Shown piece by piece: positions 1,683 to 60,973 of a stretch of 64,000 bases of DNA. The position numbers and the translations under genes were made by a program. The number at the start of each line of letters is the position of its first letter. Position 1 is the stretch's first letter. The notes under the pieces were generated by a model. The model did no database searches and was not told the DNA's origin. It worked only from the letters and a program-made list of their open reading frames with translations. The DNA comes from Planctomycetota bacterium (lineage in GTDB: Bacteria > Planctomycetota > Planctomycetia > Pirellulales > Thermoguttaceae). The stretch lies in assembly GCA_029550925.1 (NCBI GenBank), contig JAKPGL010000035.1, positions 1 through 64,000 of the forward strand, given 5' to 3'.

Positions 1683-3125
1683 ATGAGTCCACGCTCGGTC
1701 TGGGGAACTTTGTTACGACCTCTGCTACTGTTAGTGGTGGGAGCGGCTCTTTTCGCAGCGGCGCCTGCACAAGCAGGGATCACCTACAACTTCGAAAACC
1801 TATCGACCGGCGCGTTGGTCGGCCAGGACAATTGGATTCACTTCGCCGGCGGAACCGGGCATCAGGTGATCCTGGATACGCCGTCGCACTTAGGCGGCCA
1901 GCAGACGAAAGTAGTAACCGGTTTTGAGCAGTCGGCCCGCACCAACAACGCCAATTTCTCCTTTAACACCTACGGACCGTACGATTCCCTGGTGGTGATG
2001 GAATTTGATGTGCTGCCAAGCACCGACGACACGGCCACGTTTGCCCTGGGCAAGGATCTGGCGGCTGGGACTACCGGACGGCTCGGCCCCCAACTGGGCA
2101 TTTGGGTCTATTCTGGATACGGATTCATCATTCGCGGGGCAAAACAGGGGACGATTTATCCCGCCTCTTTGGGTCCCAACGACGAATCGACCGATTGGTA
2201 TCGGGTCCGCTTGGTGGCCAATGTAGCGGCCAACGGCGGCAACGGCGCCGGCACCCTGCTGGTAAAAAACCTCACCGACGGGGAAACCACGTGGCGCCAA
2301 GTGCTTACCGATAAAAACCTCGAGCTTCTCACTATGGACAGCGGCGCCCAACATCCCAGCACCTGGAACTCGCTTTATATCCGTTCCGGCGGGGCCGGTA
2401 CCAAGTTCGATAATCTGGTGGCCAACACCATCACCGGCACCACGATCTATGCCGAGTTCTTCCCGAATAATACGGGCACCTCACAGCCTTTGTCCACCGT
2501 CGCTTGGCGCCAGCACATGGGAAACGATGGGAGTGAAACTCCAGTAGGTAACATGGCGCACGTTGCCGCATGGGCAAGTATTCCCAATGTAACGGCGGTC
2601 AATTCTAACCCGGCAAATAGCTCCCAAAATGGATACACATACGGGGAAGGGATTTCGGGCCAGCCGATGATTGTTTGGACGGAGGAGTATGCGCTTCCGC
2701 CGGCCCATCGGCCCACGGCAGCCCGTTGGTACACATGGTATCCGGCGAATGATCCTCTTACGCTTAAGCTGGCGGTGCGAATCGAGGGCATGGGTTGGTA
2801 CGTTACCGAGCAGGATGCTAGTTGGGTGGCCGACGGCGCTGATCCCGGCTGGCGTCTTTTGGAATTGGATTTGACCACGGCCGCGTGGAAACAATTGAAT
2901 TTTGTGCCCGGTAGCGTGTTGGGGGTGGGGGCTTCGGTTCCCGCACTTCCGCTGGGCAGGGTTACGGCCTTCGGCGTGTTTGAGGATTCCTACGCACAGG
3001 CTGTGCGGATCGACAACTTTGTCCTGTATAGTGTGGTGCCGGAACCGACTAGCTTGGTCTTGCTGGCTGCCGGAGCGGTGGGCTTTTTGTGGCTGGCCTG
3101 GCGGCGAAAAGTTCGGGTTGGCTAA
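1683..3125 (+). CDS. PEP-CTERM sorting domain exported protein
   Basis: This 480-residue exported protein has an N-terminal signal peptide (LLRPLLLLVVGAALFAAA, then APAQAG) and a C-terminal PEP-CTERM anchor: VPEPTSLVLLAAGAVGF followed by WLAWRRK. The PEP-CTERM tail is the sorting signal recognised by exosortase, with a hydrophobic helix and a basic end. The body looks beta-rich and has a lectin/laminin-like feel (SLYIRSGGAGTKFDNL, VRIDNFVLYSVVPEP), but no enzyme motif was recognised. The ATG at 1683 is chosen over an upstream GTG at 1668 because GGAGG lies 8 bases before it and the signal peptide then begins properly. Genes for DUF1559 and a small lipoprotein follow on the same strand. The function is unknown beyond surface location. 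Confidence 0.85.
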   Translation: MSPRSVWGTLLRPLLLLVVGAALFAAAPAQAGITYNFENLSTGALVGQDNWIHFAGGTGHQVILDTPSHLGGQQTKVVTGFEQSARTNNANFSFNTYGPYDSLVVMEFDVLPSTDDTATFALGKDLAAGTTGRLGPQLGIWVYSGYGFIIRGAKQGTIYPASLGPNDESTDWYRVRLVANVAANGGNGAGTLLVKNLTDGETTWRQVLTDKNLELLTMDSGAQHPSTWNSLYIRSGGAGTKFDNLVANTITGTTIYAEFFPNNTGTSQPLSTVAWRQHMGNDGSETPVGNMAHVAAWASIPNVTAVNSNPANSSQNGYTYGEGISGQPMIVWTEEYALPPAHRPTAARWYTWYPANDPLTLKLAVRIEGMGWYVTEQDASWVADGADPGWRLLELDLTTAAWKQLNFVPGSVLGVGASVPALPLGRVTAFGVFEDSYAQAVRIDNFVLYSVVPEPTSLVLLAAGAVGFLWLAWRRKVRVG

Positions 3126-3241
3126 CGGCCAGAGCCGTTCCGCCTTCGGCAAGGCAGCAGACTGCTCAAAAGTATATATTAAAGTGTTGGTTTCCCCGAG
3201 GCCGCTTTCCTAAAGAGGGTCTCTGGACCAAAGGAGGTGTT

Positions 3242-4417
3242 ATGGGCAGTCACGGAACCGAAAAGACCAGCGGAACCTGGCGGCGGCGATTGGCCTTCGA
3301 CACCGGCAACTACGTCGGTCTCCGCCAAGGACAACACAAGTTCACTTTTTCTGCCCCTGGGCGGAAGTATAACACCTTCCGCCCGGCGCTACATGGTTTC
3401 ACGCTAGTGGAACTTTTGGTGGTCATTGCCATTATTGGCATCTTGATAGCGCTGCTACTACCGGCCGTGCAGGCGGCCCGGGAGGCGGCCCGCCGGATGC
3501 AATGCACCAATAACCTCAAGCAGATCGGCTTGGCCTTGCACAACTACTTGTCCGCCCATCGGGTCTTTCCCTACGGCGGCAGCTACGATTCCTCCAACGG
3601 ACTTCCCGGCAGCACCGGGCCTGGGGCCTTCAACTGGCGCAGCTTTATCCTCCCCTTTATGGAGCAGCAGGCGGTCTATGACGAGATTAATCGGCAGATG
3701 GTCCCTTGTTTTTTGAATCAGAGCGGGCCGCCGCCTGCTTCCTGGATTAGCCAGTTTAAGTCGCTTGCGGCCCAGCGGACCATTATCGCCACGTTCAACT
3801 GCCCCAGCGACCCGATGGCTGGCCGACTGCAAAGAATCGTTAGCCCTCATTGGGCCTATACCTATGATGCCAACGGGTTTGAAGCCGCGGTAGCGAATTA
3901 CTTCGGCAGCGGCGGCCCTACCTCGGTGGGCCAAACAGAGCCATACTGCTGCGGCCTGTGCTCCGGCGGCGTCTGCCCTTGCATCAAAGATAATCAAAAC
4001 GGCCGAGGTTCCTGGATCGGCAGCGACCTGCTGGGTGCCGGCGTCGGCATGTTTGCCCACCGGGCCACCTGCGCCCGAATCGGCGATGTAACCGACGGCA
4101 CCTCGAACACCCTGTTAGTCGGCGAACAGCGAATCGAGAAATCCAAGACCGCCGGCGGCATCCCCCGGAGCACCTTCTACTTCTGGATGGACCCCTACAG
4201 CCTGGGGACCACCGTCTATGGGATCAACGGCCCCGGACGAGACCTGGATACTTATGGATACTACCACCAAGGCTGGAGCAGCGCCCATCCGGGCGGGGCG
4301 ACGTTCGCCTTTGCAGACGGCTCGGTCCATTTTTTAAGCGACATGATCGATCTGAAAACCCTGGCCTACCTGGGCACCCGCAGCGGCGGCGAACCGGTGA
4401 CCAGCGGCACATGGTGA
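3242..4417 (+). CDS. DUF1559 type IV pilin-like (pseudopilin) protein
   Basis: The product has 391 residues. The prepilin motif GFTLVELLVVIAIIGILIAL is followed by LPAVQAAREAARRMQC and NNLKQIGLALHNY, the hallmark of planctomycete DUF1559 proteins. The C-terminal H-x9-DG signature appears as HPGGATFAFADGSVHF. The ATG at 3242 has a near-perfect ribosome binding site (AAAGGAGGTG) and gives an N-terminal leader of about 52 residues before the cleavage Gly, longer than usual. A PilD-type peptidase would be expected to cleave before FTLVE. Cysteine-rich CCGLCSGGVCPC lies near the middle. DUF1559 proteins are hugely expanded in planctomycetes and their role in the pilus/secretion apparatus is not established. 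It sits between the PEP-CTERM gene and a lipoprotein gene. Confidence 0.93.
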   Translation: MGSHGTEKTSGTWRRRLAFDTGNYVGLRQGQHKFTFSAPGRKYNTFRPALHGFTLVELLVVIAIIGILIALLLPAVQAAREAARRMQCTNNLKQIGLALHNYLSAHRVFPYGGSYDSSNGLPGSTGPGAFNWRSFILPFMEQQAVYDEINRQMVPCFLNQSGPPPASWISQFKSLAAQRTIIATFNCPSDPMAGRLQRIVSPHWAYTYDANGFEAAVANYFGSGGPTSVGQTEPYCCGLCSGGVCPCIKDNQNGRGSWIGSDLLGAGVGMFAHRATCARIGDVTDGTSNTLLVGEQRIEKSKTAGGIPRSTFYFWMDPYSLGTTVYGINGPGRDLDTYGYYHQGWSSAHPGGATFAFADGSVHFLSDMIDLKTLAYLGTRSGGEPVTSGTW

Positions 4418-49639: not shown

Positions 49640-52600
49640 TTACGGTTTGGCGGCGATCGCTTCGATGGCCTCGGCCAATTGGCGGCGCAGGAGGAGGAGG
49701 CGGTCTGGATCGGGCAGAATACGGCTGCTGTATCGGCCGCCGGGATTCGGGAAGCTGAGCAAACGGGCCGCCTCCTGGAGGGCTTTTTGCGCCTGCTGGG
49801 CCGCCGGACTGTGCGCGGGCAGTCCGCTCAATTTCTCCCGGAGCATGTGTAAATACTCATAATCCTCCACGCCTTCCCGGGCCTGCTCCAACCGGACGGA
49901 GCTGACGGGTCCCGGATGGCCGATCGGGCCGCCTGGATACACCAAATAACCATCTCCGTTCGGATACCGCACCCAGTAGTGTTTGCCCGGCTGGTCCGAC
50001 TGATGGATGTAGGCGTGCCAACCGTATCGATAGGGATCGTATGTCGCCCAGGCTACGCCCCAAAACTCATAGGCTTCCGCCCCGTAGTGGAAGCAGTAGT
50101 GGGGCAGGAGCCGTTCGATGGCGCAAAACGGCGTGTCCAGACACATCTGCCCATCCGTCGTAAACCACACCCGTTTTCCCGCCGCCCGAAGCCGAGCCAT
50201 CTGCTCCAGCGGCACGATGCCATAATGCCCAATGCCCCATACATCCAACGAATCGTCCCACTCGGGCACATGATGCCAGGTGCTCGAATAGATCGGAATG
50301 GCCGGATCCACTTCGTGAATCATCTGGCACAGGGCCTTCATCTGGGCCAGGATTTCCGGCTGCCGGTAGAACGGCTCGTCGGAAATATATAGCACAAACC
50401 GATCCGCCCAGCCTTTTTCTTTTACGTGGTTCCAGAAAAGCCGAAGGGCCTGCTGGTACAGATGTTTATATTCCGGCCGGAGCACCGCCCGGTCCGCATT
50501 CTCATACGGCGATTTGCCCGGATAGGGCGTCTCCGGGCCGATCTTCTTCGGCGGATGCCCCCAACCGAATAGATAAAAATGCCACGGGGTGTAACTGTGC
50601 CGAATCCCCAACCGGTCGAAATACCATGCGGCCGCCTTATCGAACTCGGTAAAGTCGGCCTCCACCCGGCCGTTCTCGTATCGGAAGATCGGTTCCGGTC
50701 GGAGGGCGTCCGGCTGCAAGCGTCGTCGGGCCATGAATTCCACCACCTCCCGGTACGCCTCCGGCTCCGGTTTGCCCCATAATCTCCCCCCATTTCCGAA
50801 CCGTACGTCATAAATCGCCTTCAGGTGCGGCTGATCCGGAAGAGTGAAGTTCCATACATGTACCTGGTATGGTAGCTCGGCCAACAGCACAGGCCCCGTA
50901 GGCTCTTTGCCGCCTTCCGTTTGGCCGATGGGGGTGTGCGTCGAGGCAACCTCCCGGTTGCTTTCGACCACCAGGCGGATTCGGCCCTGATATAGCCCCG
51001 CAGCGGCCTGTTTGGGCGTCTGGAAAGTGATCCAAACGGCCTGGGTGGTATTGGCCGGGAGGGAGAACCTGTTTTGGGGCAGGAGCGGATCCGGCCATAG
51101 CCCGGCAAATCCATCGCAGGCCGGCGGCGAGCGCGGCGCCTTCCGATGCCATCGGGGCGTGGTGCTAGTGTAATAATTGGTCGGGTAATCCACCGGCACA
51201 TATCCGACCAGGGCCGTCTCCGGCGGTGGAAGTGTTTGGCCGTCCGCATTGCGGGGCGGATCGACCTCCAGGCGGACTTTCTCCAATGCCCGCCCGCTGC
51301 GCACGGCCAGTTGGACCGCCTCTTGCTCGTTCCGGGCCAGAAACACTTCTACCGGCGGCGTCTGTTCTGCTTGTTGGGTGGAGGGCCGGTTTGGGGTTGT
51401 ACCGCCGGAAGAGCTATCCTTTGTATCCTTTATCGTTCGGCAAAATGCCGTCGGCGCCGGTTCGTCCGGGAAAATTTTCACAATGGGATTTACCGGCCAG
51501 ACGGCGATCTGGTCCGGTCCTATCGGACGGCCTTCCATCGCCACAATCCGAGCCGGCATCGCCTCGGCCATCAAAAGCCCGTCGTACCAAATCGTGCCGA
51601 ATCCATCCGTCGTCAGATGCACCTGCAACGTAGCGGCATCTTCCGGCATGAGGAAAAGGGCCGATAGCAGAGTCCAATCGGTTGTGCCCTGCAAGGGCTG
51701 GCCGGTAGATCGCATCGGATTATTCCGGGAAAGCTCGCCGCTGGCCGTCCGGATGTGGACATGCACCTGGGCGTTGCCCTGCTGGAGCTGGTCGGTGCGG
51801 ATCCAGGCCGCCACCAGATAAGTAGCCCCCGGCCGAACCGCTACCGACTGGGTCCAGCCCCGCCATGCCTTGGCGATCCCTGAGGGAACGTGCAACCGAG
51901 CACAACGCTGGCCTTGTCGCGGGCCGCCAGGCGTATCCGTAGCATACTGAACCTTTTCCTTCTGGGGCGATTGGGTAGCCTGCCAGGCAGAAAAGGGCTC
52001 TTGGGCCTCAAAACTGGGGTTTTTCAGGAGGTTCCGATTGCTGGCCGCCAGCCGGGCGTAATCCTCCGCACCGGGCCAAACCCCGGAAACCTTCTCAGAA
52101 TCGCCCGCACTTTTTTCGCTTTTTTCCGGGCTAACCGTCGGAGGCGTCGTAGCAGGGCCGATGGGCTTTTCGCTCGGCGGCGGTGGTTCGGCCGGCGCCC
52201 TGCCGATAGGAGCATAATAGAGATATCCGGTGAGCATCGTTCGGCCGGGAATCGAGGCCTCCAGAAGCATCCGGTCTCCCACCAGCACAGGCCGACCCTC
52301 CTGGCCGGGCCACACCCACCGAAGACTTTGCCGATCCAGCCGACCGCCAAGCCGATTGCTCAATGCAGAAATATCGACCGTCAGAAGCGCCTCATGCTGC
52401 CGATCGGAAAAGTTTTCCACCCGGATCAGCGCCCGGCGCTGGGCGGGTCGATTCTGGTTGCTCCCAGAAGGCCGATCAGCGGCCTCTGCCGAAGGCCAAT
52501 CACTCGGTGGAGCAAGCTGTTGCAATCGCAGCCGCTCCGGCCGGGAGACCTCCAGTTCAAACCCCGGCATGTCTAAACATTCCAGTTCCGCCAAATCGAA

Positions 52601-53479
52601 CCAGGCTGTGCCGGTGCCCCAGAGCACGGTTCCCAGACTGAGCCGGTCTGCACCGGCCGGAACCTGAAACTCCAATTCCACCTGCTTCCAATCGTAGGTC
52701 CCGCCGCCGGCGTTTAACATGGGCGCTGAGATCATCGGCTGCTGGGAGTTGCCCAGGTGCAGATACCAACCGGCATATCCTTTCACCCCTTCGGCCCGCA
52801 CCCAGGCCCGGAACCGATACCTGCCGCCCGGGTGGACTGAAATGTTGCTCTGCCGGGTGGCAATCCAGGAGGGCGGAGCGCCGTCGGCCACAACGGTTTT
52901 CAAACAGCGTCGGCCAGAACGGGGGTTTTCGGTGGTCCACTCGGTCCGATGTTGAGAATCCGGCCGGTCGTGCACCCAGCCGGTCGGCGTGTCGCCTTCG
53001 CCCTGTTCCACGTCGCCATTGACCAGGACTGGCCGATCGGGGAGAAAATCGGGCACTTCCCCAGCCAACGGATTGTCAAAATAGATCCAATAGGTGCTTT
53101 TTCCTTTGGGTGGGCAGTCGGCCGGCAGGAGCAACGTAGCACCGGCCGGGATGGGACCGGTGCGGAGTTCTTTGCCATCGGGGCCTAGCAGGGCGAACAC
53201 AAGTTCTGTGCCATCGGCCGCTGCCACCCGGATGGCCTGGGCGTTCTGGCCCACCAGGTCGGCTTCGGCCTGGTTCGGACCGATTCGGACCGGCGCCAGC
53301 AGCCCCTCCATCGGCCGGTCGGTGCGATTGGTGATGGTAAGTTGCACCCGGGCAGCCCAATACCCGCCGCCGTCCAGATACCAGCCTCCTTGCCATTCCG
53401 CCCCCGACAAGACACCCGTCCAACCGATGAAACTAATCCAACCGATACCCAGGAAGAATTCCAGAAGGCTCCATTGCAT
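49640..53479 (-). CDS. Large exported DUF4091-type glycan-related protein
   Basis: The product has 1279 residues from the ATG at 53479 (GAGG upstream); the frame is open to 53608. The N-terminus has a signal helix (LLEFFLGIGWISFIGWTGVL). Then two carbohydrate-binding-like modules follow, VNGDVEQGEGDTPTGW near residue 170 and LLKNPSFEAQEPFSAW near 510. The C-terminal half holds a TIM-barrel-like DUF4091 region with YISDEPFYRQPEILAQMKAL and PIYSSTWHHVPEWDDSLDVW near residue 1075-1125, and EFWGVAWATYDPYRYGWHAY. Glycan binding or cleavage is likely, but no CAZy family can be fixed. It is divergent from the chimera gene. Confidence 0.8.
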   Translation of the reverse strand: MQWSLLEFFLGIGWISFIGWTGVLSGAEWQGGWYLDGGGYWAARVQLTITNRTDRPMEGLLAPVRIGPNQAEADLVGQNAQAIRVAAADGTELVFALLGPDGKELRTGPIPAGATLLLPADCPPKGKSTYWIYFDNPLAGEVPDFLPDRPVLVNGDVEQGEGDTPTGWVHDRPDSQHRTEWTTENPRSGRRCLKTVVADGAPPSWIATRQSNISVHPGGRYRFRAWVRAEGVKGYAGWYLHLGNSQQPMISAPMLNAGGGTYDWKQVELEFQVPAGADRLSLGTVLWGTGTAWFDLAELECLDMPGFELEVSRPERLRLQQLAPPSDWPSAEAADRPSGSNQNRPAQRRALIRVENFSDRQHEALLTVDISALSNRLGGRLDRQSLRWVWPGQEGRPVLVGDRMLLEASIPGRTMLTGYLYYAPIGRAPAEPPPPSEKPIGPATTPPTVSPEKSEKSAGDSEKVSGVWPGAEDYARLAASNRNLLKNPSFEAQEPFSAWQATQSPQKEKVQYATDTPGGPRQGQRCARLHVPSGIAKAWRGWTQSVAVRPGATYLVAAWIRTDQLQQGNAQVHVHIRTASGELSRNNPMRSTGQPLQGTTDWTLLSALFLMPEDAATLQVHLTTDGFGTIWYDGLLMAEAMPARIVAMEGRPIGPDQIAVWPVNPIVKIFPDEPAPTAFCRTIKDTKDSSSGGTTPNRPSTQQAEQTPPVEVFLARNEQEAVQLAVRSGRALEKVRLEVDPPRNADGQTLPPPETALVGYVPVDYPTNYYTSTTPRWHRKAPRSPPACDGFAGLWPDPLLPQNRFSLPANTTQAVWITFQTPKQAAAGLYQGRIRLVVESNREVASTHTPIGQTEGGKEPTGPVLLAELPYQVHVWNFTLPDQPHLKAIYDVRFGNGGRLWGKPEPEAYREVVEFMARRRLQPDALRPEPIFRYENGRVEADFTEFDKAAAWYFDRLGIRHSYTPWHFYLFGWGHPPKKIGPETPYPGKSPYENADRAVLRPEYKHLYQQALRLFWNHVKEKGWADRFVLYISDEPFYRQPEILAQMKALCQMIHEVDPAIPIYSSTWHHVPEWDDSLDVWGIGHYGIVPLEQMARLRAAGKRVWFTTDGQMCLDTPFCAIERLLPHYCFHYGAEAYEFWGVAWATYDPYRYGWHAYIHQSDQPGKHYWVRYPNGDGYLVYPGGPIGHPGPVSSVRLEQAREGVEDYEYLHMLREKLSGLPAHSPAAQQAQKALQEAARLLSFPNPGGRYSSRILPDPDRLLLLRRQLAEAIEAIAAKP

Positions 53480-54106
53480 TGAAGAACCTCGTCCGCCCAG
53501 CCGACCTAAAAGCCTCCCTTTCCCCCCGTCGGTAGATGTTCTCCGGCGCCAAAGACGCCCTGGGCGGAGAAACCTTCGATTCCAAGCATTACTACCATAC
53601 AAAGGCATTCCACGATCCTTTCTAAAAACTGGTTGAAAACGCTTGCCTGTGCGTGGGATGAATGGACGCCCCTATGGATTTCTCCCTAGTTTACTTGCCA
53701 GCTTCTCCGAAAGCTACCGCGACGCGCAGTAACCTGCGTCGAACCGCCCCGGAGGGCGGAAAGGCCATTTCAAGGAATCGCTTTGCTGGATTGGGGCTGA
53801 GAGGTTTTGGGGAGAGGAGGATTTTGTGTCGGCCTTCTGGAAAGATGTGTTTGAGATGATTTACAATAGGAAGAGAAGTTCCTTCGCGGTCGGTCGCTTC
53901 CAGGGCCAGCAGGGGCCAAGCAGAGAAGTTTCTATCCTTTGGGCAAAAAAGGCCCCCATTAGGAGAAAGGCCCTCTTTTCGAAGAATCTTTCCTTTAGGG
54001 AAAAGAGATTTTCTTGCGGAAATAAGGTATTTTTCCTAGGGATTAGGAGAGGTTAGGGGAATTTTGTCCCTCCCCCCAAAGGATGGGATTTTCTTCCGAG
54101 GCCCGA
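53480..54106. other. Divergent spacer, 627 bases
   Basis: It lies between the DUF4091-type gene and the chimera. Two neighbouring hairpins occur: CGACGC/GCGTCG (53720-53741) and CCGCCC-CGGA-GGGCGG (53744-53759). A TACAAT -10-like box at 53862-53867 on the plus strand has no good partner. Short ORFs here are unsupported. Confidence 0.45.
53720..53759. repeat. Two adjacent GC hairpins
   Basis: CGACGC pairs with GCGTCG across a GCAGTAACCT loop, and immediately downstream CCGCCC pairs with GGGCGG across CGGA. Neither has a U-tract. Confidence 0.5.
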
Positions 54107-57100
54107 ATGGCAACGAAGGTGTTGTTTTATATTCAGTGTACGACCTGTCAGGCCCGGTTGGCGGTTCGGGATGCCGGCGCCATCGGCAATATCCTGCTCT
54201 GTCCAAAGTGCCAGAGCTTTGTGGAGGTGCTGCCGCCGCCGGACTGGAAAGGGCCGGGATCGGAAAATCCCCCTAAAGGGGTTAGTGTATCTGCACCAAA
54301 AGAACAGTCTGACCGGGCCAGCAATCTAGGTGGAGGCGGCCCCCCCTCTTTTTTGGAGCAGGATGAGCCTACTCCAGAAGGGGAAATGCCATCCCAATCT
54401 CCTCCGAAAGAGGTGAAATCGCCTCCGCTAAAAGCAGTTCCCGCCCCTTCCCCAGAAAACAGGCCGTCTCCCGTGCCGCCGCCCCTACCTTCTGCAAAGG
54501 CTTGTCCAGCGACAAAACCTCCTCCAGAGAGAGAAGGTACTTCAGGTCTGGCAGTTTCTGGAGGGGGGAAAAAGGCAGAAACCTCTCCATCAGAAGTAGT
54601 CCCACCCCCAGTGATTTGGCCTGTCGGGAAGAAACCGGCCGATTCCTCGACGGTTTTAGCGGGAGCAGTTTCCGAGTCGTCGTCCTCCTCTCTGGAGGCA
54701 AAACCGCCCATCCCGCCATTGCCTCCTGGGGACAGGGAGCCTAAGTCCCCCACACTTAAGGGGAGCCCTCCTGCGCCTCCGGTTTCGGACCAACAGATCG
54801 TGGTGGTTTCCCCGAGCCGATTTTTTCCTTTCTGGGGGATGCCTTTCTCCACCTGGATACCCCCATGGGTTGTACTGATTGTAGCCCCTTTGGGTGGGAT
54901 CTTGTTGGCAGCGGGGCTCCTCATCCTTTTCCGGCCATCCCAGCCACCATCGGAATCTGCAGAACCAGCCCCTGGCCAACAGGTCCAAACCGTTCCATTA
55001 CCGGAGACGCCGCCTCCTGCGCCTGTGGCCCCTGTTTCCTCAAAAGAACCTTCTAAAACACTGGATAAGCAGTGGATTCCGGATCCGACCGGTTTGGTGG
55101 TCGCCGTCCGGTGGAATCGGCTGGCAGCGGAGGGTCGGCTGGTAAGCGCCTTCGAATCCTTTTCTCCAGAGGCGATCCAGGTGGGCCAGCGGTTTTTGAA
55201 ACACCTGCACCTGCCGCCGGAAAAAGTGGAACATCTCGTGTGGTTGGCCGTCGATGGGGCCGATTGGCCAAACCGGAGTGTGATCCTGGCGGCGCTGGCG
55301 GAGGAGGCGCCGGGGGCGGAGCTGGCCCAACGAGGCCAATCCTGTGGGTTCCGAGTGGGCGATGCCGAGTGTCGGAAGGACCCAGCGTCGGATTGGCCGC
55401 ATCCGTTTGCTCGAGTGGCTCCCCGATGGGTGCTCACAGGTCCGGAAGTGTTGCTTCGCCATGTGTCGGAGCGGTCTAAACCCCAATTACAAAGCCGGGC
55501 CTTGGACCGGATAACGGACAATTGGCCCTGGGAGGCGGACCTGGCCGTGGCGGTCGATTCTTCTTGGATCCGTTCTCTAGCCGGTAGCGGGGTGCAGAGG
55601 TTGGGGGCGGTTTGGCCGGAAAGTCGGCGACCGCTCCAGGTTCTTTGGGAAGTGCCGAGAGGGTTTTCCAGTTTCGTGTACTTAGGGGAAGCGGTTCGGT
55701 TAGAAGCGGCTGCGTGGTGCGAGACGGCATCGGAGGCCGAGCAGGTTCGGGCCGCTCTGGAAGAGTTTTTGGGTTCAAGCGGTTCGGCATTGGGTGATCG
55801 GGTTCAACGGCTTGCCGGGGAGGTGCAGGCGGGCCAGTGGAAGGCGGATCGGGCTGCCGAGTACGAAAAACTGTTGAAGGCGGCCCAAACCGGGATTCAA
55901 TCGGCCCGTCTGGAATTGGCCGAGACTACTGTTTGGGGCCGAACCACTTGGAAAACGCCTTGGCAGGAGATGCTCGGTTCCCTCCGGTCGGCCCAAGAGG
56001 CGATGCGAACCGATTGGGATGCGGCGACGGCTGGGGTGATCCAGCAGCAGGAGGAGCGGCTTTTGCAGGCGCTGAGGGCCTACACGAAAGCAGAAGGGCA
56101 TTTTCCACCGGGGGCCGAGGGTGGGCCGTTGTGGGACCCGGCAACCCGGCTCAGTTGGATCGCCTTGGTGTTGCCTTACATGGGTCGGGCCGACTGGTAT
56201 CAGCAGTTGCAACTCCGGTATCCCTGGAACAGCCCGCAGAATAGAGCGGTGGCCCAACGGCCCTTGGAGGAGGTGCTCAATCCGGCCCTGCCGCAGCGGA
56301 CCACCGAGGCCGGGTTTCCGGTTACCCATTATGTGGGTGTGGGCGGCATGGGCGCAGACGCCGTCCAACCCCAGGCGGACCCTCGCCGGATCGGCGTGTT
56401 TGGGTTCGGCCGGACGCTAAAGCCCGAGGAGATCACCGATGGGCTGAGCCATACCATCGCCATTGCCGGGGTGGATCGTGGGTTGGGGCCGTGGGCGTCG
56501 GGCGGATCGGCGACGGTTCGGCCCTTCACCCAACCTCCCTATGTGAACGGGCCGGATGGGTTCGGTACGGGCCAGCCGGATGGCATGTTCGTCGGCATGG
56601 CGGACGGTTCGGTGCGGTTCATTTCCAAAAATGTGGATCCTCGGGTGCTGGAGATGCTGGCTACTGCCCGCGGCATGGAACGGATCGAGGGGCTGGCTTG
56701 GGAGGCCGGTCCAAAGGTGATCCGGCCTGGTAGTCCGGCCGTGGGGCCGTCGGCGAAACCGCCCGAAACCAAGCCTTCTTCCGGCCCCGGCCCTTCCGAG
56801 ACGGCCAAAAGCCAGCCTTCCGAAGGTCCGGCCCCCAAGCAAACCGAACCGAAACCGCCGGAAGGCCCTTCCGAAAAGCCGCCGGCAGTCGCCGAAAAAG
56901 AGAAATCCGGTCCTTCCGTGGCCCAATTGCAGGCGGAAACGGAAGCCCGATTGGCGGAAAAGGTGGCTTCCGTCGAACTACCTGGTCTGTCGCTGCGCAA
57001 AGCGGTGGGGGTGGTCGAAGCCCTCAGCGGGGTCCGCATCACGTATGATCTGGAGGAAATGGAAGCGGCGGGTGTATCGTTGGAAACTCCGGTCCGGTTT

Positions 57101-58030
57101 CAACAGACCGATACCAGTGTGGGCGAAATTCTGCGGGCCGTCTTGGAACCGTTGGGACTTAGCTACATGGTCGAGGGCAGAGATGTTTTGATCAGCCGAC
57201 CGAGCGCGGCCCGGCAACAGTGGCGCACGGTGCGATACGATGTGTCGGACCTGGATGCGGGTGCGGAGAGCGAGCCGGAAGACCTGGCCCGGCTGTTGCA
57301 ACAATTTGTACTGCCGGAGTCTTGGGAGCGGAGCGGCGGGGCGGGCAAAATCGAAGTCCGAGACGAAACGCTGCTGATCTATCAGACCGACCTTGGGCAT
57401 CGACGGGTAGTGGAGCTATTGGAGAAACTTCGGTTGGCCCGGCGCCTGCCGCTGCGGATCGAACCAAGCCGAAAAGACCTCACCCTGCAAACCCGGCGAC
57501 AGAAGATGCGCTCGGTGCTGGAGCGTCCGATCACGGCGAATTTCGGGACGCCGACTCCTTTGCCGGAAATCCTGGCCTATCTGGAGCAACTGGCACAAGT
57601 AGCCATCGTCGTGGATTGGGCGTCGTTGCGGGCCGAGGGACATGAACCGAGCACGACGGCTACCCTACGAGTTCACCAACAACCATTGGCCGAAGCCTTG
57701 AAAAACCTTTTGGAACCGTTGGGATTGAGCTGGCGGATCGCCGGTCCAGAACTGCTCCAGGTAACTACCCAAAGAGGAGCGGCAATGCGGTTGGAGGTGG
57801 AATTCTACCCGGCTTCCGAGGCAATTTCGAGTCTGGGAACTGCTAAAGCGTTGCTGGAGGCGATCAAAGACCAAGTAGGCCGAGGCACTTGGGAAGATCA
57901 GCAGGGACAGGGGGCTGTGTATTTTGATGCGCCCAGCAATCACCTGATCGTTCTGCAAAATCCATCGGTCCATGCGGAACTGGAACGATTCTTGGCCGGT
58001 TTCCAGACGCCTAAAGCTAGCTCTCCATAG
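54107..58030 (+). CDS. Chimeric membrane protein: zinc ribbon, DUF1559-like module, secretin-type modules
   Basis: The product has 1307 residues from the ATG at 54107 (GAGG upstream); a start at 54083 has no spaced ribosome binding site. In order: an MJ0042-like zinc ribbon (C11, C14, C32, C35), a Pro/Ser-rich disordered stretch, a membrane helix near 248-278 (WVVLIVAPLGGILLAAGLLI), a module similar to the 20756 protein, a DUF1559 C-terminal-like region around 645-860 (DGMFVGMADGSVRFISKNVD), a second Pro-rich linker, then two repeats of a secretin N0/STN-like domain (VELPGLSLRKAVGVVEALSG and FGTPTPLPEILAYLEQLAQV), each followed by an N1-like unit. It probably spans the membrane with its bulk outside. 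Its function is unknown. Confidence 0.8.
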   Translation: MATKVLFYIQCTTCQARLAVRDAGAIGNILLCPKCQSFVEVLPPPDWKGPGSENPPKGVSVSAPKEQSDRASNLGGGGPPSFLEQDEPTPEGEMPSQSPPKEVKSPPLKAVPAPSPENRPSPVPPPLPSAKACPATKPPPEREGTSGLAVSGGGKKAETSPSEVVPPPVIWPVGKKPADSSTVLAGAVSESSSSSLEAKPPIPPLPPGDREPKSPTLKGSPPAPPVSDQQIVVVSPSRFFPFWGMPFSTWIPPWVVLIVAPLGGILLAAGLLILFRPSQPPSESAEPAPGQQVQTVPLPETPPPAPVAPVSSKEPSKTLDKQWIPDPTGLVVAVRWNRLAAEGRLVSAFESFSPEAIQVGQRFLKHLHLPPEKVEHLVWLAVDGADWPNRSVILAALAEEAPGAELAQRGQSCGFRVGDAECRKDPASDWPHPFARVAPRWVLTGPEVLLRHVSERSKPQLQSRALDRITDNWPWEADLAVAVDSSWIRSLAGSGVQRLGAVWPESRRPLQVLWEVPRGFSSFVYLGEAVRLEAAAWCETASEAEQVRAALEEFLGSSGSALGDRVQRLAGEVQAGQWKADRAAEYEKLLKAAQTGIQSARLELAETTVWGRTTWKTPWQEMLGSLRSAQEAMRTDWDAATAGVIQQQEERLLQALRAYTKAEGHFPPGAEGGPLWDPATRLSWIALVLPYMGRADWYQQLQLRYPWNSPQNRAVAQRPLEEVLNPALPQRTTEAGFPVTHYVGVGGMGADAVQPQADPRRIGVFGFGRTLKPEEITDGLSHTIAIAGVDRGLGPWASGGSATVRPFTQPPYVNGPDGFGTGQPDGMFVGMADGSVRFISKNVDPRVLEMLATARGMERIEGLAWEAGPKVIRPGSPAVGPSAKPPETKPSSGPGPSETAKSQPSEGPAPKQTEPKPPEGPSEKPPAVAEKEKSGPSVAQLQAETEARLAEKVASVELPGLSLRKAVGVVEALSGVRITYDLEEMEAAGVSLETPVRFQQTDTSVGEILRAVLEPLGLSYMVEGRDVLISRPSAARQQWRTVRYDVSDLDAGAESEPEDLARLLQQFVLPESWERSGGAGKIEVRDETLLIYQTDLGHRRVVELLEKLRLARRLPLRIEPSRKDLTLQTRRQKMRSVLERPITANFGTPTPLPEILAYLEQLAQVAIVVDWASLRAEGHEPSTTATLRVHQQPLAEALKNLLEPLGLSWRIAGPELLQVTTQRGAAMRLEVEFYPASEAISSLGTAKALLEAIKDQVGRGTWEDQQGQGAVYFDAPSNHLIVLQNPSVHAELERFLAGFQTPKASSP

Positions 58031-60025: not shown

Positions 60026-60973
60026 TTAATCGAAGCAGAAGCACTCCGTTTCCAGGCAGTGGTGCAACGGACAGATTTTCCCAAAGGAAGGGGGGATAGG
60101 ATCAGCAGGAACGCACTTTTCCACCGCGATAGCCTTCCGGGCCAACAGGTCTCGAAACGCCTCCGCTCCTTCTTCCCGTACCAACTGGCCTGGGGAAAAA
60201 TAAGGTCCCAACTCCTGCGGCGGAAGAAACCAGAGCCGAAACGTCCACGGGCCCCGTTCGAACGCTTCTCGCAGTTTTTGGAGCCTCTGCAGGGCGTCCG
60301 GCGTTTGGTTTAACACGAAGATAAGCCCGGAGATTCGGAGTTGGGCGAATTGCGCCAGTCGTTTGGGCGTAATCGGTTGGCCCGATTCCCCTAAAGCTAC
60401 GGTTCGCCAAAAAGCCTGCATCTGAAGCATCAGGGCTTCCAGAATATCTTCCACCACGAGAAGTCCCTTTTTACGTCCCCCGTGGGCCAGGGCGGTTGGA
60501 AGCCAAACGACCGGGACATTCGTTTTCCAATCCGGCCTCCAATAAAGATAGGAAGCAGTGTCCGAAGAGCGGGAAATGCTCCGCGCCCACAAACTGACGA
60601 TCTCTCGGGAGGCTGTCTGAATCGGTCCGACCAACCGGCCAGCCAATCGGCGGTCCGCCAAGAGTCTGCTCTGTCGAATCTGTTGCTCTGAAAAACCTTG
60701 CTGGAGTAGGCGTTGGAACATGCTCTCCGGGGCGTCGATCCACCCGACCAAAAATCTGTCGAGTCGGTCCATCCGAAGCCCTTGGCGGGCGAGAAAGTCC
60801 CCAACTTGTTTCACTTGGTCTGGTGGAAAAGGGGCCTTTTCGAGAGGGGAATCGCCGCTTGGTGGATCGGCGCCCTCTCCGCTGGGGGGGATTGTTTCTC
60901 CTACGATATGGTGAAGATTCTCCCTCCCGCAGGAGAGAAACGCCTTCGAAATATCCCTTAAAAACCCCTCCAT
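60026..60973 (-). CDS. Degenerate DnaG/Toprim-like protein
   Basis: The product has 315 residues. It resembles the DnaG catalytic core: FLARQGLRMDRLDRFLVGW (primase N-side), DRRLAGRLVGPIQTASREIV (like the DnaG RFRGR..PI segment) and WLPTALAHGGRKKGLLVVED (Toprim entry, VVED where DnaG has VVEG). The acidic D-x-D Toprim pair expected later is missing; the site reads GLIFVLNQTPDAL. The LPPQELGPYF segment resembles the DnaG LP..DP-region. A short Cys-rich end (CPLHHCLETECFCF) follows. So it is a likely catalytically dead relative, perhaps a nucleic-acid-binding or phage-derived protein. AAAGGAAG precedes the ATG. Confidence 0.6.
   Translation of the reverse strand: MEGFLRDISKAFLSCGRENLHHIVGETIPPSGEGADPPSGDSPLEKAPFPPDQVKQVGDFLARQGLRMDRLDRFLVGWIDAPESMFQRLLQQGFSEQQIRQSRLLADRRLAGRLVGPIQTASREIVSLWARSISRSSDTASYLYWRPDWKTNVPVVWLPTALAHGGRKKGLLVVEDILEALMLQMQAFWRTVALGESGQPITPKRLAQFAQLRISGLIFVLNQTPDALQRLQKLREAFERGPWTFRLWFLPPQELGPYFSPGQLVREEGAEAFRDLLARKAIAVEKCVPADPIPPSFGKICPLHHCLETECFCFD

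Follow-up and report, generated by a model that had tools for sequence, protein, structure and literature searches.

Background

The N0 and N1 domains of secretins are usually studied within the pores to which these proteins give rise. The N0/STN fold is common to secretins, TonB-dependent transducers and anti-sigma regulators, so its occurrence in a protein does not by itself permit a choice between secretion and signalling. A further element with a well-known setting is DUF1559 (SBP_bac_10), whose pseudopilins are numerous in planctomycetes (PMC8567305). The present work concerns a gene, here designated gene B, which joins modules of both kinds in one chain on a pore-less protein that is predicted to sit in the inner membrane. 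It lies in a stretch of 64,000 nucleotides (the window), positions 1 to 64,000 of contig JAKPGL010000035.1 in the Thermoguttaceae assembly GCA_029550925.1 (order Pirellulales). The chain encoded in the window is one end of a modular gene B family, and in most relatives gene B is the second gene of a two-gene operon whose first member, gene A, encodes a degenerate kinase; the family to which the window belongs lacks gene A.

An initial annotation of the window, made from its letters alone, had described gene B as a single chain of an MJ0042-type cytoplasmic zinc ribbon, a membrane helix, a DUF3352-like module, a DUF1559-like module and two N0/STN-N1 pairs, and had suggested that the protein might bridge an undescribed planctomycete transport or pilus machine. 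Most of this domain description is borne out below, while the DUF3352 label and the link to transport or pili are not.

Results and discussion

Architecture and conservation of the gene B protein

Alignment with relatives gives the module order zinc ribbon, disordered linker, transmembrane helix, module of about 300 amino acids (aa), DUF1559, linker, N0-N1 and N0-N1, and the coordinates are collected in Table 1. The assigned start is plausible: GAGG stands a few bases 5' of the ATG at 54107, in line with which most relatives likewise start a few residues N-terminal of the zinc ribbon. The chain is a real and conserved chimera, as the initial annotation had supposed, since two congeners, which occur in two genome sets and are counted once, encode the whole chain with 62% and 60% identity and the same module order is found in at least four families (f1, f2, f5 and f10). 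Every module is under purifying selection, with the ratio of nonsynonymous to synonymous substitution rates (dN/dS) well below 1; the DUF1559 module is the most constrained (about 0.06), and the linkers drift, those at the module junctions remaining in frame.

The zinc ribbon has the pattern CxxC-17-CPxC, of which the CxxC and CPxC elements are invariant in all aligned family members, and its only Pfam matches are sub-threshold (LysW-type, Zn_ribbon_4/5). Hydropathy yields the one membrane helix that had been expected. The DUF1559 module is the clearest Pfam assignment (PF07596, E 7e-21, aa 654-845); the C-terminal part gives STN (E 1e-5, aa 1183-1213) and Secretin_N, that is N1 (E 0.004, aa 1246-1297), both of which fall below the Pfam cut-off when the whole protein is scanned, the STN match passing it once the C-terminal part is scanned by itself. 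STN is matched in 20 of 21 relatives. Homology between the first and the second N0-N1 pair is given by hhalign at 99.6%, and the double pair, too, is upheld.

The module of about 300 aa is a genuine conserved module which is at present unnamed. DUF3352 was not matched by Pfam in the window protein (E up to 1), in ten homologous modules or in nine modules of gene A, and it is named in no paper of the literature that was searched. Sequence searches of the Protein Data Bank returned nothing meaningful, whether the query was the whole protein or a profile of the C-terminal pairs, of the middle module or of DUF1559.

In a structure model built from three sequences, the second N0 domain, which alone reaches a confidence (pLDDT) of 65-80, matches secretin N0 and STN structures with Z 8-10 and rmsd 1.6-3.3 over 71-90 residues in alignments that are confined to that domain. 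The fold on which the initial annotation depended is therefore present. The matches comprise the N0 domains of EscC, PilQ, XcpQ and GspD, the STN domains of FecA, PupA and FpvA, and the C-terminal domain of an anti-sigma regulator (4m0h; Z 10.1, rmsd 1.6), with PupR also among the best. Phage and injection-system baseplate proteins score about as well, so the N0 fold by itself names no function.

The features that define a secretin or a pseudopilin are missing. No Secretin pore domain (PF00263) is detected in the protein by Pfam at E up to 1; the N-methylation signal (N_methyl) is absent both as a Pfam match and as a motif, and no hydrophobic helix precedes the DUF1559 module. The H-X9-DG model (TIGR04294) scores 18.8 bits against a cut-off of 19, and its histidine, which is Gln in the window protein, is never His and mostly Gln in the readable gene B modules. 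The ordinary DUF1559 protein encoded at 3089-4417 of the window has both the N_methyl match and the histidine. Having no pore and no pilin signal, and having lost the H-X9-DG histidine, the gene B protein is neither a secretin nor a pseudopilin.

Table 1. Gene B and its modules in the window (residue numbers in parentheses)
Feature	Position	Strand	Basis or remarks
Whole gene B	54107..58030	+	1307 aa, one unbroken open frame
Zinc ribbon, N-terminal (aa 5-46; Cys 11, 14, 32, 35), predicted cytoplasmic	54119..54244	+	Family alignment, weak Pfam LysW-type match, dN/dS 0.05-0.14
Pro/Ser-rich low-complexity linker (aa 47-254)	54245..54868	+	Congener identity 26-31%, poorly conserved
Single transmembrane helix (aa 255-273)	54869..54925	+	Hydropathy
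Unnamed module of about 300 aa, predicted extracytoplasmic (aa 318-625), distantly related to the gene A module	55058..55981	+	
DUF1559 (SBP_bac_10) module (aa 650-862), without N-methylation signal, pilin helix or H-X9-DG histidine	56054..56692	+	
Pro/Glu/Lys-rich linker (aa 863-943)	56693..56935	+	
First N0(STN)-N1 pair (aa 945-1114)	56939..57448	+	
Second N0(STN)-N1 pair (aa 1136-1297)	57512..57997	+	N0 fold matched to secretin N0, TonB-transducer STN and anti-sigma C-terminal domains

The gene B family and the history of its DUF1559 module

Some match is present in every one of 40 relatives' genomes, and the orthologues differ in their middle modules. The long form, with both middle modules, is that of the four families named above; DUF1559 without the unnamed module is found at loci L045 and L112, and the unnamed module without DUF1559 at L053. 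Short members of 616-724 aa consist of the zinc ribbon, the helix and N0-N1 pairs only, and the shortest (L091) of the zinc ribbon, the helix and one STN-type domain. A 3-deoxy-D-arabino-heptulosonate 7-phosphate (DAHP) synthase gene adjoins gene B in several long and short forms, and this shared neighbour identifies the two as orthologues. The synthase was also considered as a functional link; the synteny is shared by several families and is often convergent, and the gene is used here as a marker of orthology only.

The DUF1559 modules of gene B form a single clade (26 rows, support 99/97, recovered in all bootstrap trees), which includes one module from another order of the class and lies closest to non-pilin DUF1559 proteins that are lipoproteins or membrane-anchored. 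Mapped onto a tree built from the N0-N1 region, the pattern of DUF1559 demands about ten changes, and at least four of these are made unavoidable by branches with good support. A single ancient acquisition with repeated later losses is the simplest account, with transfer as the alternative; a pilin body would thus have been put to use as an ordinary soluble module.

Several unusual frames were encountered in the course of this survey. At L053:6141-8306 (+) the gene B frame is open for about 720 codons ahead of the zinc ribbon, which may represent a fusion or a non-coding open stretch. A 330-aa protein at L124:1719-2711 (-) has a zinc ribbon, a membrane helix and DUF1559, which is the front half of the gene B plan, without N0-N1 and falls outside the gene B clade. 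Frames of 1982 to more than 2600 aa with a DUF1559 module occur at L066:5706-11654 (-), L119:2-6592 (+) and L120:4102-12000 (+), and in that of L066, the one frame scanned, Pfam gives no other domain.

Gene A and the A-B operon

In the product of gene A a kinase-like domain and a single helix are joined to an extracytoplasmic module, and the C-terminal domain is STN-like. In all 18 of 18 sequences the kinase-like domain is without the lysine of VAIK and the aspartate of DFG, which makes it a pseudokinase. The extracytoplasmic module has no Pfam match in nine partner modules; it is distantly related to the unnamed module of gene B (hhalign 96.3%, with profile matches to L102, L103 and L091), and the C-terminus resembles the first N0-N1 pair of gene B (hhalign 92.7%).

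Both genes are carried by 71 genomes, and in 68 of these A immediately precedes B on the same strand, with a gap that is mostly below 100 bp and typically about 30 bp; in the remaining three the genes are on different contigs. Of 146 genomes in the order, 111 contain gene A, none of them f1 members; the 101 genomes of the window's family lack it, and three short matches to STN alone are the only exceptions. Twelve genomes of one family in another order of the class, probably the Planctomycetales, also carry it. In that order a zinc ribbon replaces the pseudokinase at the start of gene A, and gene B is a small gene comprising the zinc ribbon, the helix and one N0, to which DUF1559 is added in one case. 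The related modules of the two genes, together with the shared plan of zinc ribbon, helix, module and N0, suggest that A and B are old tandem paralogues.

It was also considered that the unnamed module of the long gene B might substitute for a lost gene A. Families f2, f5 and f10 have gene A together with the long gene B, and many Thermoguttaceae have neither gene A nor the long gene B, so this idea was rejected.

Genomic neighbourhood and other proteins with N0 domains

The four window neighbours that were scanned are a glycoside hydrolase family 123 gene, a BBP2 porin, a gene matching DnaG_N and a thioredoxin-like gene. The glycoside hydrolase (49640-53608, -), which has CBM_4_9, is divergent to gene B in a segment shared only with the congener, and the 315-aa protein encoded at 60026-60973 (-) weakly matches the N-terminal domain of DnaG and nothing else. 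An operon of gene B with its window neighbours was considered and rejected because the flanking genes are not kept beyond the genus. No secretin, pseudopilin-assembly or secretion ATPase gene was found beside gene B, either in the window or where its neighbours are conserved in relatives.

The recurring neighbours identified in relatives are DAHP synthase, Glu dehydrogenase and a MacB-type exporter. At L091:9921-14421 (+), and also at L092, L096, L099 and L100, an ABC ATPase, a MacB/FtsX-type permease and an HlyD-type adaptor lie directly 3' of gene B; five loci in two genera of the other order are too few to build on.

Elsewhere in the window genome there are five secretin loci (PF00263) and eight T2SSE-type ATPase matches. 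The profile of the N0-N1 pairs recovers the N-domain of a 1299-aa protein encoded on contig C78 (L062:7283-11182, -), at E about 5e-31 for the whole protein and about 4e-21 for its best-scoring domain. This protein is a true secretin, with the pore domain PF00263 at E 1.7e-22, and no pilus or type II secretion gene was identified near it. The same profile matches two further proteins of this genome. One is a 523-aa protein with a signal peptide and two N0-N1 pairs but no zinc ribbon (contig C18, L061:1250-2821, -); the other has a von Willebrand A domain, a TPR match and a C-terminal N0/STN domain (contig C158, L063:1-2343, -). One genus has arrays of secreted proteins of about 580 aa, up to six to an array, that consist almost entirely of N0-N1-type repeats (L127:6883-18552, +; L128:1-5470; L129:16861-19501; L130:5107-8810); these proteins match STN or FecR_C below the Pfam cut-off and lie, in several genomes, no more than about 5-17 kb away from the A-B operon.

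Proposed function

The role towards which we tentatively lean is that of an inner-membrane docking or adaptor protein which acts through its N0 domains. The zinc ribbon would be the cytoplasmic end and the remainder of the chain would lie between the membranes, with the unnamed module and the headless DUF1559 module serving as a rigid spacer, or as a ligand-binding part, between the membrane and the docking domains. The two C-terminal N0-N1 pairs would bind other envelope proteins that carry N0 domains; in most relatives the bound protein would be the N0/STN domain of the operon partner, and further partners in the same cell may be its secreted N0-N1 proteins or a secretin.

Several points weigh against this proposal. 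The structure model is weak (mean pLDDT 50), the middle half of the protein (pLDDT 32) has no usable model, and the topology is a prediction from hydropathy. N0 folds are also used in signalling and in phage and injection-system baseplates, so that docking to a secretin is not implied by the fold. Finally, gene A is absent from the window's own family and cannot be the partner there. The partner in the window genome must therefore be another protein, for which the secreted double-pair protein of contig C18 and the N0-bearing secretin of contig C78 are candidates.

On a wider view, which is put forward with more reserve than the docking role itself, A and B may possibly be the two cores of an undescribed trans-envelope system of the class Planctomycetia. 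Its cytoplasmic pseudokinase and its zinc ribbon would each be linked by a single helix to N0 docking domains outside the membrane, and the window's family would have given up the pseudokinase gene and run the system with gene B alone. There is a fair chance that some undescribed system lies behind the A-B pair. Of the system that the initial annotation had envisaged, a place in an undescribed planctomycete envelope module is supported, and a link to transport or to a pilus is not.

The best surviving alternative, which nevertheless appears rather unlikely, is trans-envelope signalling of the FecR kind, in which the STN/N0 domains sense an outer-membrane or periplasmic partner and pass the signal through the helix to the zinc ribbon and, in relatives, to the pseudokinase. 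The anti-sigma domain 4m0h, PupR and the STN domains of FecA and PupA are among the best structural matches to the second N0, weak FecR_C matches occur in L091, in a paralogue of the window's own genome and in a secreted paralogue, and both the minimal form of gene B and the kinase-like cytoplasmic domain of gene A would suit a signalling protein. Against these stand the degeneracy of that kinase, the N1 domains, which are foreign to FecR/TonB signalling, the absence of a Pfam FecR match in the window protein, and the fact that no sigma factor was found among the four window neighbours scanned or in the conserved neighbour clusters, which are partly annotated.

Less probable again is a place in the inner-membrane portion of an export or pilus machine built on a secretin, with the N0-N1 pairs stacked on a secretin ring and DUF1559 touching the pseudopilins. 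The order N0-N1 is that of secretins, the genome has the secretins and T2SSE-type ATPases counted above, of which one true secretin is matched by the pair profile, and planctomycete DUF1559 pseudopilins are many (PMC8567305); yet gene B has no secretion genes beside it in the window or recurrently near it in relatives and no pore, pilin signal or pilin helix of its own, and its DUF1559 module, being missing from many orthologues, cannot be required. A static spacer or anchor, whose repeats hold proteins of the periplasm or the cell wall to the inner membrane, would account for the long disordered linkers and the frequent gain and loss of the central modules, but it is improbable because it leaves unexplained the conserved pseudokinase partner and a zinc ribbon that is kept in all alignable members. 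The suspicion that a fragmented draft of 233 contigs might invite, namely an assembly artefact or frame-joined chimera, is refuted to the point of near impossibility by the end-to-end congeners, the recurrence in at least four families, the low dN/dS and the in-frame junction linkers. Neither a misassembled join nor a failure of the N-domain fold, the two objections foreseen in the initial annotation, holds.

The individual domains are known already; the literature searched, a scope outside which most subscription papers fell, contains no description of the gene B family, its architecture, its operon with a pseudokinase or its distribution. Through most of a bacterial order gene B is accompanied by a catalytically dead kinase in a nearly constant two-gene order, and if A and B cooperate, the pair would offer a testable entry to the links between inner membrane, periplasm and cytoplasm in the unusual planctomycete envelope.

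Comparison with known systems

The gene B protein shares with the secretins (GspD, PilQ, EscC/InvG) the N0 fold, the order N0-N1 and homology to a secretin of its own genome; it differs in having no pore, a helix anchor at the opposite end, two full N0-N1 pairs and a zinc ribbon that is predicted to be cytoplasmic. With the STN domains of TonB transducers and the FecR/PupR regulators it has in common an STN-type fold and a single-pass plan with a small cytoplasmic domain, but it lacks a FecR domain and an adjoining sigma factor in the neighbourhoods covered here, has N1 domains, and carries a zinc ribbon where those regulators have an anti-sigma domain. The DUF1559/SBP_bac_10 pseudopilin-like proteins share the DUF1559 body, whereas gene B lacks their N_methyl signal, pilin helix and histidine and forms a clade of its own. 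GspC and PilP are, like the protein proposed here, single-pass inner-membrane proteins with periplasmic docking domains; gene B has neither a homology region nor a PilP Pfam match, and its docking domains are of the secretin side rather than the GspC side. YukC/EssB of type VIIb secretion are membrane pseudokinases which gene A resembles in general plan, a pseudokinase in the cytoplasm being joined by one helix to a part outside the membrane, but in gene A that part ends in an N0/STN domain.

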